A DNA stretch of 64,000 nt from NCBI RefSeq assembly GCF_037076455.1, contig NZ_AP028679.1, forward strand, positions 4,107,501-4,171,500, written 5' to 3'. This document shows, in pieces, positions 10,961-58,809 of this stretch; the first letter of the stretch is position 1, and the number at the start of each line of letters is the position of its first letter. The notes under the pieces are model-generated. The model was not told the origin of the DNA and searched no databases. It saw nothing but the letters and a program-made list of their open reading frames with translations. Made by a program: the position numbers and the translations under genes. This DNA comes from Desulfoferula mesophila (GTDB lineage Bacteria > Desulfobacterota > Desulfarculia > Desulfarculales > Desulfarculaceae).

Positions 10961-11503
10961 ATGGAAACCATCCCACCCCTCGCCCCCAAGGTGCCGCTGG
11001 AGGAGATGAGCCTGGAACAGCGCATCGGCGCGGCCAAGCTGCTCATGGTGGAACTGGAAGGCGGCCTCAGCGACGGGGTGAGCTACCTGGCCCCGGACGG
11101 CGGCGAGACCCTGCCCCTGTACCGGGCCGACATCCTGGGCCTGGAGAGTTGGCTGGCCGCCGGGCGCCTGCTGGTCCTGGTGGCCCGCCCCGGCCTGGCC
11201 GCGGCCGAGGCCCTGGCCCGGCGCCTGGGGGCCGTGCTGCGCACCTCGGGCGGGGACAAGGGCATCCTGTTCAAGCAGGCGGTCTGGGAAAACCAGGTGT
11301 CGCCCGTGGAAGCGGTTTACCTGGGCCGCGACATGGACGACCTGCCCGCCCTGGGCTTGGCCGGGCTGGCCGCCTGCCCCCCCGAGGCCCCGGAATGGGT
11401 GCGCTCGGTGTGTCATCTGGTCACCGAGGCCCCGGCGGGGCGGGGGGCGGTGCGCGAGCTAGTGGACCGCCTGTTGGCCGACTACCTGCCGGAGACGATC
11501 TAG
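10961..11503 (+). CDS. KdsC-like HAD protein with lost catalytic motifs
   Basis: The 180-residue protein aligns by pattern with KdsC (Kdo-8-phosphate phosphatase): LSDGVSYLAPDGGETLPLY, a conserved lysine (K100), YLGRDMDDLPAL and a C-terminal GRGAVRELVDRLL. However, the nucleophile motif DxD is ELE (E31, E33), the motif II Ser/Thr position reads VAR, and GDDxND is GRDMDD. Phosphatase activity by the HAD mechanism is therefore unlikely. It may be a regulatory or structural pseudoenzyme, or a decaying paralogue. It lies 2 nt before the DUF3786 gene and is probably co-transcribed with it. Confidence 0.7.
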   Translation: METIPPLAPKVPLEEMSLEQRIGAAKLLMVELEGGLSDGVSYLAPDGGETLPLYRADILGLESWLAAGRLLVLVARPGLAAAEALARRLGAVLRTSGGDKGILFKQAVWENQVSPVEAVYLGRDMDDLPALGLAGLAACPPEAPEWVRSVCHLVTEAPAGRGAVRELVDRLLADYLPETI

Positions 11504-26305: not shown

Positions 26306-26344
26306 CTAATGCTTGGATTGCGCCAGGGACGGTGCATTTCCCAG

Positions 26345-26466
26345 CGGCACAGCCAGGGGTTCGTGGGGCAGGCGTCCGGCGAGCGCAGACCGCAGGCGTA
26401 TCGCCAATACGCCGAGGTCTAAGCGATACCGGCAACACCGCCCACGGGCGCCTGGCGCAGCCGCCG
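26345..26466 (+). repeat. Dispersed palindromic repeat, copy B
   Basis: The central dyad is GGCGTAT/ATACGCC (around 26395-26414) and the right end CTGGCGCAGCCG. The right end lies 15 nt from the stop codon (26482) of the minus-strand APS-kinase-like gene. Confidence 0.75.
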
Positions 26467-43071: not shown

Positions 43072-43230
43072 GGCACAGCCAGGGAGGGCCAAGCAAAGCG
43101 GCGGCGAGCGCAGACCGCAGGCGTATTGCTACGGCCCAAGCGATGCCGCCAACGCGGCATGGCGCTTACTGGCGCAGCCGGCACACCCACCCGGCATAGC
43201 CAGCCGCCGGCAGAGTAAAGCGGCAGGCGA
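43072..43230 (+). repeat. Dispersed palindromic repeat, copy C plus partial copy
   Basis: 43072-43180 is a full but eroded copy (GAGCGCAGACCGCAGGCGTA present, right end CTGGCGCAGCCGG). It is followed directly by a partial left half (43180-43230, with CATAGCCAGCCGCCGGCAGA). Orientation matches copy D. Confidence 0.65.
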
Positions 43231-43261: not shown

Positions 43262-43371
43262 TGTCCGTGGGCAAGGCATCCGGCGAGCGCAGACCGCAGG
43301 CGTAGCCTAAGCTACGTTGAGGTCTAAGCGATGCCGGCAACACAGCCCACGGGCAGCTGGCGAAGCCGCCC
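43262..43371 (+). repeat. Dispersed palindromic repeat, copy D
   Basis: It contains GAGCGCAGACCGCAGGCGTAG, the CTACG half of the central dyad, and the right end CTGGCGAAGCCG. The right end abuts the engB stop codon (43373-43375). Confidence 0.75.
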
Positions 43372-51233: not shown

Positions 51234-51482
51234 AGTGCCTCTCGCCCCCGGGAACTTGACCCTGCCGACTCGCGGCCCGCCCCTGAAACATTCTTGCCAG
51301 GATGCCTAAAGCGCGGCCATTAATCAAGCCACAAGCCGCCAAAATTAGCGGCCCTCGGTTGGGAGCCCGCTTCGGCGGCCCGGCAAAACATCCACCGCCG
51401 GGGCTTGTGAGCCGGGGCGGGGCGTGTCATAGTGAGGCAACTTGCCCCGCTGGCGGGGCGTTTGTTCAGGCGGAGGTTGAGC

Positions 51483-52670
51483 TTGCGCGTCGGCATGGTG
51501 GTGCAGCGCTACGGCGAGGGGGTGGACGGCGGGGCCGAGGTGCACTGCCGGGCCGTGGCCCGCCGCCTGGCCCAGCGGGGCCACCAGGTCACGGTGCTCA
51601 CCACCACCGCCCAGGACTATCTCTCCTGGGCCAACCACTTCCCCCCCGGCAATAGCGAGCTGGAGGGGGTGGCGCTCAGGCGCTTTCCGGTGGCCCGGCG
51701 GCGCTGGATGAAGCCCTTCAACCTATGGTCGCGCAAGGTCTACCGGGGCGGCCAGCCCATCGACGTGCAGTGGCGCTGGCTGGTGCGCCAGGGGCCCTAT
51801 TGCCCCGCGCTGCTGGAGCACCTGGTGGAGCGCGAGGACGACTACGAGGCCATCGTCTTTTTCACCTACCTGTATTTCCCCACCGCCGCGGGCCTGCCCC
51901 TGGTGCCCCGCCGGGCCCTGCTGGTGCCCACGGCCCACGACGAGCCCACGCTGTATCTGCCGGTGTTCCGGCCGGTGTTCCACCTGCCCCGCTCAATCAT
52001 CTACAACACCGCCAGCGAGCGGGAGTTGGTGGAGCGGGTCACGGGCAACCGCCAGGTTCCCGGCCGGGTGGTGGCCCTGGGCATCGACCCGCCGGCCGCC
52101 GGCGGCGGAGCCGAGTTCAAAAAGCGCCACGGCATCGAGGGCCCCATGGCCCTGTACCTGGGCCGGGTGGACGTGATGAAGGGCTGCCGGGAGATGCTGG
52201 AGCACTTCGCCCGCCTGGCCTCCGAGCCGGACCTGGCCGGGCTCAAACTGGTGCTGGTGGGCAAGCAACGCATGGAGGTGCCCAAGCATCCGGGGGTGCT
52301 CGGCCTGGGCTTCGTTGACGACGCCGAGCGCGACGCGGCCCTGGACGCCGCCGATTTTCTGGTGATGCCCTCGCCCCACGAGAGCCTGTCCATGGTAACC
52401 CTGGAGGCCTCGGCGGCGGGCAAGCCGGTGCTGGTCAACGCGGCCTGCGAAGTGCTGGACCAATACGTGGGCCAGGCCGGGGCGGGCCTGAGCTACCGGG
52501 ACTACGAGCAGTTCCGGGCGGCGGTGCGGGAACTGCTGGCCGAGCCCCGGCGGGCCGCGGCCCTGGGCCAAGCCGGGGCCGCCTACGTGGCCGACCACTA
52601 CGGCTGGGAGCCGGTGCTCACCGCCTACGAACAAGAGATGGGCTGGGTGGCCGAGCAGGCGGAATTATAA
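51483..52670 (+). CDS. GT4-family glycosyltransferase
   Basis: The 395-residue protein has the GT-B fold of family 4: N-terminal MVVQRYGEGVDGGAEVHCRAVARRLAQRGHQVTVLT, and a C-terminal donor domain with LYLGRVDVMKGC, VLGLGFVDDAERDAAL and MPSPHESLSMVTLEASAAGKPVLV (the E-x7-E motif). TTG at 51483 is chosen because GGAGG lies 6 nt before it. It likely adds a sugar to a surface polysaccharide. A second, unrelated-looking GT4 gene follows after a repeat. Confidence 0.85.
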   Translation: MRVGMVVQRYGEGVDGGAEVHCRAVARRLAQRGHQVTVLTTTAQDYLSWANHFPPGNSELEGVALRRFPVARRRWMKPFNLWSRKVYRGGQPIDVQWRWLVRQGPYCPALLEHLVEREDDYEAIVFFTYLYFPTAAGLPLVPRRALLVPTAHDEPTLYLPVFRPVFHLPRSIIYNTASERELVERVTGNRQVPGRVVALGIDPPAAGGGAEFKKRHGIEGPMALYLGRVDVMKGCREMLEHFARLASEPDLAGLKLVLVGKQRMEVPKHPGVLGLGFVDDAERDAALDAADFLVMPSPHESLSMVTLEASAAGKPVLVNAACEVLDQYVGQAGAGLSYRDYEQFRAAVRELLAEPRRAAALGQAGAAYVADHYGWEPVLTAYEQEMGWVAEQAEL

Positions 52671-52695
52671 TTCCCATATTGCGAGTACTGGGGCC

Positions 52696-52943
52696 GCCCC
52701 CACATTTCAGGAAGGTCGGGCGGCACCTGTTAGCGAACAATACTTATGAAAAAAGAAGCTCTCAAACTAAAATTCTCTCGGCACTCGGCACCGGCACAGC
52801 CAGCCGACGGCAGACAAGGCGACCGGCAAGCGAGGGCCGCAGGCGTAGCCGGCGCTGCTACGTCGAGGGCCGAGCGCGGCCGGCAACGCGGTATGCCGGT
52901 GGCTGGCGTAGCCGGACGCCCGACCTTCATGAAATGTGGGGGC
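52696..52943. repeat. Long inverted repeat enclosing palindromic repeat copy E
   Basis: Arms 52696-52721 and 52918-52943 are 26-nt inverted copies with one mismatch. They enclose 196 nt: an AT-rich stretch (52735-52785) and repeat copy E. The right arm ends 7 nt before the start of the next glycosyltransferase. Confidence 0.8.
52792..52915 (+). repeat. Dispersed palindromic repeat, copy E
   Basis: Full-length copy with ends CGGCACAGCCAGCC and GGCTGGCGTAGCCG and central GGCGTAG...CTACG. It is the only copy whose right end faces a start codon rather than a stop codon. Confidence 0.8.
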
Positions 52944-52950
52944 TGAAACC

Positions 52951-54099
52951 GTGCAGATCGGCATCGACATCTGCCGCCTCACCGACGCCTGGACCGGGGT
53001 GGGCAACTACATCGCCAACCTGCTGGCCGGCCTGGCCCAGGTGGACCAGGACAACCAATACGTCCTCTATCCCTATTTTCCGGAGTGCTTCCCCCGCCGG
53101 GTGAGGGACATGGCCCAGTTCGTGCCGCCCCAGGCCAACTTCTCCCTGTGGGGAACCGGACGGCCCGAGCTTCTGGTCAAGCTGCTGTGGTTCAAGCTCA
53201 AGCTGCCCCAGCGCTGGTTCTTGGCCAAACCGGCGGTGACCCACTCCACCAACCTGGCCGGGCCGCGCCTGACCCACGGCAAGCTGGTGGTCACGGTGCA
53301 CGACCTGTCCTTCTGCCGCCAGCCGGACTGGCACAAGGCCGAGAACGTGGCCTTCAGCCTGCGCGCCCTGGGCAACGCGGTGGACAACGCCGACCTACTT
53401 ATCGCCCCCTCGCGCTTCACCGCCCAGGAGTTGGTGGAGCTCTACCCCGCCGCCCAAGGCCGGGTGCGGGTGGTGCCCGAGGCGGTGCTGCCGGCCTATC
53501 GCCCGGCGGAGGACCCCGCCGGGGTGCAAGCGGTGCTGGAGCGCCACGGCCTGGAGCGGCCCTACCTGCTGTTCGTGGGCACCCTGGAGCCGCGCAAGAA
53601 CCTGGTGCGTCTGCTCACCGCCTATGAGCGGCTGTTGGCGGGGGGGCAGGAGGAGTTCGACCTGGTGCTGGCCGGAGGCACCGGCTGGAAGGCGGGGCCC
53701 ATCGAGGAGGCCCTGAGCCACAGTCCGGCGCGGGGGCGGGTGCGCCGTTTGGGCTACGTGCCCGGCCCGGAGCTGCCCGCGCTGTATCAGGGAGCCTGGG
53801 CCCTGGTCTATCCCTCGCTCTACGAAGGCTTCGGCCTGCCGGTGCTGGAGGCCCTGGCCTGCGGCACCCCGGTGGTCACCTCGGCCGCCGCCTCCCTGCC
53901 CGAGGTGGGGGGCGAGGCGGCCCTGTACGTGGACCCCGAGGAGCCGGAGCAGCTTCTGGAGGCCCTGGAGCGCATCACCGGCGAGCCAGGCCTGCGCGAG
54001 GCCTTGGCCACCAAGGCCCTGGCCCAGGCGGGGCGCTTCTCCCAGGCGGCCATGGGCCGGGCTGCCCTGGCGGTCTACCAGGAGGCGGCGAAGCTCTAG
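52951..54099 (+). CDS. GT4-family glycosyltransferase (mannosyltransferase-like)
   Basis: The 382-residue GT-B enzyme has IGIDICRLTDAWTGVGNYIANLLAGLA at the N-terminus, THSTNL, VTVHDLSFCRQPDWH, and the donor-binding part LLFVGTLEPRKNLVRLL, LGYVPGPELPALY and PSLYEGFGLPVLEALACGTPVV. These are typical of group 1 mannosyl- and glucosyltransferases in polysaccharide clusters. GTG 52951 is preferred; an in-frame GTG at 52936 would overlap the inverted-repeat arm. The weak G-rich site upstream is part of that arm. Confidence 0.87.
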   Translation: MQIGIDICRLTDAWTGVGNYIANLLAGLAQVDQDNQYVLYPYFPECFPRRVRDMAQFVPPQANFSLWGTGRPELLVKLLWFKLKLPQRWFLAKPAVTHSTNLAGPRLTHGKLVVTVHDLSFCRQPDWHKAENVAFSLRALGNAVDNADLLIAPSRFTAQELVELYPAAQGRVRVVPEAVLPAYRPAEDPAGVQAVLERHGLERPYLLFVGTLEPRKNLVRLLTAYERLLAGGQEEFDLVLAGGTGWKAGPIEEALSHSPARGRVRRLGYVPGPELPALYQGAWALVYPSLYEGFGLPVLEALACGTPVVTSAAASLPEVGGEAALYVDPEEPEQLLEALERITGEPGLREALATKALAQAGRFSQAAMGRAALAVYQEAAKL

Positions 54100-56383: not shown

Positions 56384-56394
56384 TCTAAGGGTGA

Positions 56395-56515
56395 CCGGCT
56401 TCGCCAGCCCCCGGCATACTTCGTCGCCGGCTGTGCTTGGCCCTCGGCGTAGAAAAACTACGCCTGCGGCCCATGCGCGCCGGACGCCTCGTCTGTCGGC
56501 GGCTGGCTGTGCCGG
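56395..56515 (-). repeat. Dispersed palindromic repeat, copy F
   Basis: Inverted relative to the other copies. Central dyad GGCGTAG-aaaaa-CTACGCC is perfect; ends are CGGCTTCGCCAGCC and GGCTGGCTGTGCCG. The end equivalent to the right end of other copies faces the stop of the plus-strand gene 55619-56383. Confidence 0.8.
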
Positions 56516-58629: not shown

Positions 58630-58804
58630 CCGGCACAGCCAGGCAGCGCCAGGCAAGGCAGTATGCCAGGGGCTGGGGATCAACCGGCACAGCCAGCCGC
58701 CGGCAGACAAGGCGTCCGGCGAGGGAGTTCCGCAGGCGTATATGCAATACGCCGAGGAAACGAGCGATGCCGGCAACGCAGTATGCCGGGGGCTGGCGAA
58801 GCCG
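58630..58804 (+). repeat. Dispersed palindromic repeat, copy G with preceding short derivative
   Basis: 58685-58804 is a full copy (ends CGGCACAGCCAGCC and GGCTGGCGAAGCCG; centre GGCGTAT/ATACGCC). 58630-58677 is a short version in which the two ends are joined without the middle (CGGCACAGCC ... AGTATGCCAGGGGCTGG). The right end lies 5 nt from the ABC gene stop codon. Confidence 0.8.
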
Positions 58805-58809
58805 TACGG

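Follow-up and report, generated by a model that had tools for sequence, protein, structure and literature searches.

A putative MITE with IS1380-type ends and a strand-polar RNA fold between two glycosyltransferase genes of Desulfoferula mesophila

The repeats ERIC, NEMIS and RUP all have TA termini, and IS630-Spn1 is given as the likely source of RUP in PMC2229807, where a role of RNase III is proposed for NEMIS RNA and an orientation-dependent effect on the stability of upstream mRNA is ascribed to ERIC. RUP of Streptococcus pneumoniae, a MITE of IS630-Spn1, is like the element analysed here in being short, with TA termini and ends that match an IS, but it has an IS630 partner and a length of 107 bp, whereas the present element has IS1380-type ends, about 261 nt and a composite interior. 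The Correia/NEMIS repeats of Neisseria (107 and 155 bp) share TA termini, a terminal inverted repeat (24-bp TIR) and an RNA stem-loop with it, a likeness of description. ERIC/IRU of enterobacteria is also a TA-terminated, co-transcribed intergenic repeat, but has 127 bp and a 7-bp TIR, whereas the arms found here are about 30 nt long and of the IS1380 type; all three comparisons follow the descriptions in PMC2229807. Members of the IS1380 family such as ISAzs3 and ISPa33 resemble the element in their terminal repeat and in insertion at CTAG or CTAA; these IS are 1566–1633 nt long and encode a transposase, whereas the element, of 252–261 nt, codes for nothing, as judged from its length and sequence. 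According to PMC9208149, IS1380 copies are over-represented between co-directional genes, which fits the positions of the element described below. An IS427-group element is described in PMC4133298 as lying just upstream of +TAA with the TA duplicated, the target supplying its stop codon. Titles and abstract beginnings among the literature matches listed contained no IS1380-derived MITE and no such repeat, and six arm strings gave no match in literature text.

We analysed a window of 64,000 nt from the genome of Desulfoferula mesophila (4.48 Mb, one contig), a sulfate-reducer relative. The element and its neighbours, all on the + strand, are as follows.

51432..52670, + strand: upstream glycosyltransferase (Pfam glycosyl transferases group 1), with orthologues in L051-L054
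52671..52693, + strand: spacer of 23 nt from the upstream stop codon to the element, with no equivalent in four relatives
52694..52945, + strand: whole element, copy E, interpreted as a MITE of IS1380 type; 252 nt, against 261 typical of the family, aligned with 76 others, absent in 4 of 4 relatives
52694..52722, + strand: left terminal arm (52696-52721 in the original prediction), from the repeat search; family consensus TAGCCCGCATATTTCATGAGGGTTGGGYGG; resembles IS1380-family ends
52723..52790, + strand: A+T-richer middle, poorly conserved and partly deleted in E, from the alignment of 77 copies
52791..52915, + strand: core hairpin, the repeat copy E proper; at least 44 matches in the own genome; covarying helix
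52916..52945, + strand: right terminal arm, overlapping the leader of the next gene, from repeat search, alignment and fold
52951..54099, + strand: downstream glycosyltransferase (Pfam glycosyl transferases group 1), start GTG 52951 from orthologue starts

The original prediction described 26-nt arms with 25 of 26 matches that enclose a repeat copy and reach over the region upstream of the next start codon. These observations hold: the repeat search of the window gives arms of 27 nt (52696-52722 and 52917-52943) that are 96% complementary with 194 nt between them, copy E (52791-52915) lies inside, and the right arm ends shortly before the start GTG 52951. An in-frame alternative start, GTG 52936, falls inside the right arm; four homologues start at the equivalent of 52951. 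The element is oriented in sense with both glycosyltransferases, and its own ends read CC and TG instead of TA. The 23 nt at 52671-52693 may be what is left of another, decayed end.

A DNA search of the own genome with 52690-52950 as query returned 46 rows, some of them partial (40 of 105 first-look candidates were scored). At least 44 match all or part of the interior hairpin (query positions 102-226, that is 52791-52915), and the remaining two rows are the arms matching each other. Some of the core matches extend into the right arm, and the flanks of some copies contain the same two arms at the same places; since several copies have the interior flanked by the same arms, the interior is one module of a longer element and the arms are its ends. 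The arm pattern, allowing up to three mismatches, occurs at 15 places in this genome, and the reversed-pattern control at none. Arm-bearing copies found are E, L002, L004, L005, L007, L035, L057 and L058, with degenerate forms among them (core half deleted in L035 and nearly gone in L057; L058 only 58 nt long), and a further arm match in L059 lies in apparently coding sequence with no partner arm. Within the window the arm pattern matches at E alone. Other copies of the core hairpin are located at 1105-1200, 26342-26463, 43072-43181, 43272-43368, 56389-56515 and 58683-58808, which suggests that the core also spreads or survives without IS1380-type ends.

The same ends recur in related genomes. 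The arm pattern was counted 21–156 times in each of seven same-genus genomes and 69 times in G010, a member of another genus; it was found zero times in G008, G009 and G013, and the reversed control gave zero in all 11 genomes. Of 63 genomes in the class, 10 contain a match to the consensus element, namely eight of the genus (own included), G010 and G058; the match in G058 covers 24 nt only and was counted as chance, leaving nine element-bearing genomes. From the fetched loci we extracted 87 distinct elements of 215–365 nt and aligned the 77 of 245–270 nt, E included, over 296 columns, leaving out the 10 that fall outside this range. The typical element length is 261 nt, with variants of 226 nt, 289 nt and about 356 nt; the 226-nt variants L002 and L045 have similar flanks and the same shortened middle. 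L110, L111, L112 and L084 are longer variants of 355–357 nt, and in L084 extra, different sequence lies within the core hairpin, suggesting exchange of interior modules. Five contigs of G003 (L134, L135, L142, L150, L151) begin or end inside an element, probably through recent amplification that broke the assembly. Solo 25-nt arms (TAGCCC..CATGAGGGCTA or close) with a similar junction and no interior occur at L060:520-544, L083:317-341 and L085:1501-1525, and may be deletion or excision footprints or, alternatively, target-like sequences. The consensus element gave no match in plasmids and phages. Shortened arm motifs in viral contigs matched, by eye, mostly in unrelated contexts; exact arm sequences at L188:77-95 and L189:4523-4541 lie within about 120 nt of viral contig ends, as expected for the ends of repeated IS, and the inner parts of L188 and L189 gave no match against plasmids.

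Comparison with close relatives (Desulfarculaceae or other proteobacterial MAGs) provides empty sites. In four relatives (L051-L054) the orthologues of the two glycosyltransferases are 70–85% and 80–89% identical, and the gap between the aligned coding parts is 8–17 nt, compared with 283 nt in the window; the element is absent between this gene pair in all four. L055 and L056 are not orthologous at the glycosyltransferase junction and are not among these four relatives. Conversely, element L113 of G002 has a clean empty counterpart in the window near 11501 (ATC[TA...TA]GC versus ATCTAGC). L113 is the only clean case, with one TA in the empty allele, among nine junction comparisons; the alignments at the left side of E, at L094, L102 and L130, and at L081 in L163 do not settle the duplication. 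The case for a two-base duplication comes from this single clean empty site and the target statistics, set beside three comparisons in which the empty allele reads TGA. The family shows these traits of a bacterial MITE: short, dispersed copies sharing both ends, terminal inverted repeats and empty sites.

The target statistics show a preferred insertion site. TA stands at both ends in 48 of the 87 copies, and 41 of those 48 read YTAR; a pyrimidine precedes the left end in 75 of 87, and a purine follows the right end in 81 of 87. Stop codons and orientation were counted in 85 elements, the two with a flank of less than 190 nt being left out, and at about 40 loci with a 200-nt flank only, open frames are cut at 66 codons. 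In 60 of the 85, the terminal triplet of the element closes a reading frame with 60 or more open codons (left end 36, right end 41, both ends 17). Among ends reached by a frame of this length, the longest frame is the one of the terminal triplet in 37 of 64 left-end cases (p = 5e-5) and 33 of 65 right-end cases (p = 0.003), with one third expected. When the codon is reconstructed with the bases at the opposite end, it is a stop once more in 31 of the 36 cases on the left and 23 of the 41 on the right. Insertion at the TA within a TAR stop codon would restore a stop and leave the protein unharmed, so that such copies would be expected to persist. Within 25 nt beyond the right end, 39 of 85 elements have a possible start codon with 55 or more open codons after it, and 20 of 85 have one beyond the left end; both values are inflated because TTG was counted.

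The ends point to the IS1380 family. A search of plasmids with a 31-nt arm query at an E limit of 10 was a weak one and returned 27 records (best E 0.01), of which we examined 11; in eight of these an annotated IS1380-family transposase lies beside the arm match, and in three (H1, H2, H10) it does not. Of the eight IS1380 copies, four are ISAzs3 from a single strain and two are ISPa33; the other two are from Acidovorax and Marinobacter. Three of the transposases are PF13701 / NF033539. Left ends of the ISAzs3, ISPa33, Marinobacter and Acidovorax elements agree with the arm at 17–18 of 20 nt and right ends at 13–17 of 20, taking the better of two arm variants with no statistical null, in IS elements that were themselves found by arm similarity. 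CTAG flanks the eight IS1380 copies on both sides, apart from the right side of one, which reads CTAA; the MITEs are inserted at YTAR. Among the 15 arm matches of the own genome, no two form a pair at 1–2 kb, and four IS1380 proteins gave no tblastn match in 447 kb of window and fetched host loci. On these sequence comparisons the element is best read as a MITE with IS1380-type ends, its partner transposase not found in those 447 kb. One of the three records with no such transposase beside the match is a Magnetococcus massalia plasmid, on which a similar miniature element, here in another class of bacteria, forms a 185-nt hairpin with the same terminal sequence and a different interior (L218:2502-2686).

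We examined whether substitutions within the family follow the pairing of one strand. RNAalifold gives 50 pairs, 36 of them with at least one two-sided change; 22 are arm pairs, 15 of which are so changed, and the arms were picked by similarity to one consensus, which raises apparent arm pairing. In 61 pairs of the consensus fold, chosen by a Watson-Crick share of at least 80% from a pair set derived by folding the consensus of the + strand, G.U occurs 131 times versus 64 for A.C, and 34 pairs favour G.U versus 14 (p = 0.006); columns unpaired in the consensus fold show no direction (90 versus 87). With the copies grouped at 75% identity into 15 clusters, the count of G.U versus A.C falls to 69 versus 55 and is not significant. 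In the arms, 15 pairs favour G.U and 4 favour A.C; in the core the split is 18 to 10, which is not significant. Once all Watson-Crick-consensus pairs are included and the 80% filter is dropped, G.U exceeds A.C in the arms (109 versus 49) but not in the core (86 versus 89) or the middle (178 versus 189). On a tree (simple parsimony), changes from Watson-Crick to G.U number 158 versus 77 to A.C (arms 75 versus 27, core 70 versus 41). The wobble signal stands out in the arms and is fainter in the core.

Stability and genomic orientation have the same polarity. The + strand is more stable than its complement in 73 of 77 copies (mean -141.3 versus -127.5 kcal/mol; the rows are related). With gene orientation taken from codon-usage scoring of 198-nt flanks, the element is in sense in 37 of 52 tandem contexts (p = 0.003); restricted to confident contexts, the figure is 20 of 23 (p = 0.0005), or 19 of 22 when L002 and L045, which look like one shared insertion, are accounted for; 26 of 85 elements lie between convergent and 7 of 85 between divergent genes. 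That one strand folds better and is the sense strand between co-directional genes is shown only statistically. The better-folding strand being the sense strand between such genes, the element would be co-transcribed as a long hairpin within an operon.

At the locus itself, RNA structure prediction across 52680-52980, for which the original prediction had called, yields a very stable fold (-148.6 kcal/mol, z = -5.5; 0 of 100 shuffles as stable). It was proposed that the block conceals the downstream glycosyltransferase's ribosome binding site and opens in response to a signal. The predicted fold agrees with the first half of this proposal: positions -15 to -8 relative to GTG 52951 are fully paired with the left arm present (mean probability of being unpaired 0.00) and less so without it (0.24). 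The second half fares worse, and a regulatory switch is very unlikely. The start codon is predicted to be more open with the left arm (0.45) than without it (0.19; 0.02–0.32 in the four relatives), and no alternative fold of the block was seen. The suggested comparison with relatives lacking the element confirms its absence and shows in addition that masking is not peculiar to E: there, -15 to -8 are unpaired with probabilities of 0.25, 0.00, 0.23 and 0.74, so that predicted masking of the ribosome binding site does not distinguish E. Occlusion by copy E is thus a prediction of the folding model, and element-less relatives are also variably paired. The same gene pair exists without any element in these four relatives, and elsewhere the family occupies tandem, convergent and divergent contexts. 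A riboswitch or described cis-RNA family was rejected, as cmscan of 52300-53300 at E values up to 5 gave three matches, all below gathering scores (best E 0.42); in the whole window, only two tRNAs reach gathering scores. We found no intrinsic terminator in E or in L120. Two promoter-like sites matching 9 of 12 positions, one per strand, lie within 52737-52773 in the middle part of the element, the only ones in 52500-53100, where shuffles give an expectation of 0.2; these candidate promoters inside copy E are unproven, and L120 has none. The alternative offered by the original prediction, insertion of copy E into a long hairpin already present between the genes, had the nesting alone in its favour and now has next to no probability: the four relatives have no hairpin between the glycosyltransferase genes, and the arms surround the same interior in dozens of copies, 77 of them aligned.

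Two further readings concern how the element moves. A folded single strand as the mobile stage, either RNA with a reverse transcriptase as in retrons, the arms corresponding to a1/a2, or single-stranded DNA with a Y1/HUH transposase, would agree with the layout of arm, middle, long hairpin and arm and with the strand polarity of wobble and stability; we nevertheless consider it very unlikely, since the ends resemble those of a DDE-type IS family and the enzymes do not follow the element. Reverse transcriptase (PF00078) is present in three of nine element-bearing genomes (G000, G005, G007) and gave no match in the other six, and Y1_Tnp is present in four of nine, with none in G000, G001, G004, G007 and G010, most of these genomes being incomplete drafts. 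Spread driven by reverse transcriptase was rejected on these counts, as was a Y1/RAYT partner, Y1_Tnp occurring in 8 of 14 genomes with a distribution that does not follow that of the element; in L174 an element and a Y1 match are about 0.95 kb apart. A retron ncRNA (msr-msd) does not describe E, both neighbours of which are glycosyltransferases, reverse transcriptase having no match in six of the nine element-bearing genomes. The only RVT_1 match of the own genome, L131:1396-2322, encodes a 308-aa reverse transcriptase, presumably retron-type from its motif, that follows a 115-aa ORF and, by eye, a transposase-like ORF; nothing element-like was seen beside it. The remaining reading, an IS630/Tc1-type MITE with TA duplication and CTAG preference like RUP, accounts for the YTAR target and for TA at both ends. 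IS630 prefers CTAG, and IS630-related genes are annotated about 0.9 kb from the Magnetococcus element. Yet the arms resemble IS1380 ends, annotated IS1380 copies use the same CTAG/CTAA sites, and DDE_3 (PF13358) has no match in any of the nine element-bearing genomes, so that an IS630 partner was rejected and this origin is highly improbable.

The block is probably one copy of an IS1380-type MITE that is moved by a transposase acting in trans. Its post-transcriptional effect is most likely mild and constitutive, not that of a switch. Its interior consists of an AT-richer stretch and a REP-like hairpin (copy E), and the arms are its IS1380-type terminal inverted repeats. An IS1380 transposase (DDE_Tnp_1_4) supplied in trans would bind both ends and insert the element at a TA within YTAR; where this TA belongs to a stop codon, the protein would stay intact and the copy survive. 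As a hairpin in operon mRNA, the element would have at most a modulating influence on how the transcript is processed, on its stability and on the start of the following gene, like that described for ERIC and NEMIS. Copy E, lying between the two glycosyltransferases, is most likely a tolerated insertion of this kind. A more far-reaching reading, which we put forward tentatively and hold to be doubtful, is that RNA folding of one strand has shaped the evolution of this IS1380-type MITE, with selection visible in its sequence. It would then be a mobile RNA hairpin module lying between cistrons, similar to ERIC but descended from another transposon family. Such a module would land on stop codons, give the preceding gene a stop and often end just before the next start codon, and between co-directional genes it would be kept almost only with the well-folding strand as mRNA.

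The element is of an ordinary kind, a MITE, in a new combination: it joins ends of IS1380 type and a composite, REP-like interior with insertion compatible with stop codons and with folding that is strand-polar. The finding is thereby recast from a local riboregulator to a dispersed mobile element, and stop-codon-compatible insertion is tied to IS1380-type ends. Weak as a glycosyltransferase switch, it merits a transcript experiment as a family of mobile RNA hairpins. The usual view of MITEs is that of parasites at the DNA level; in this family there are signs of strand-specific covariation together with an operon orientation bias, and whether MITE hairpins act as RNA in vivo becomes a directly testable question.
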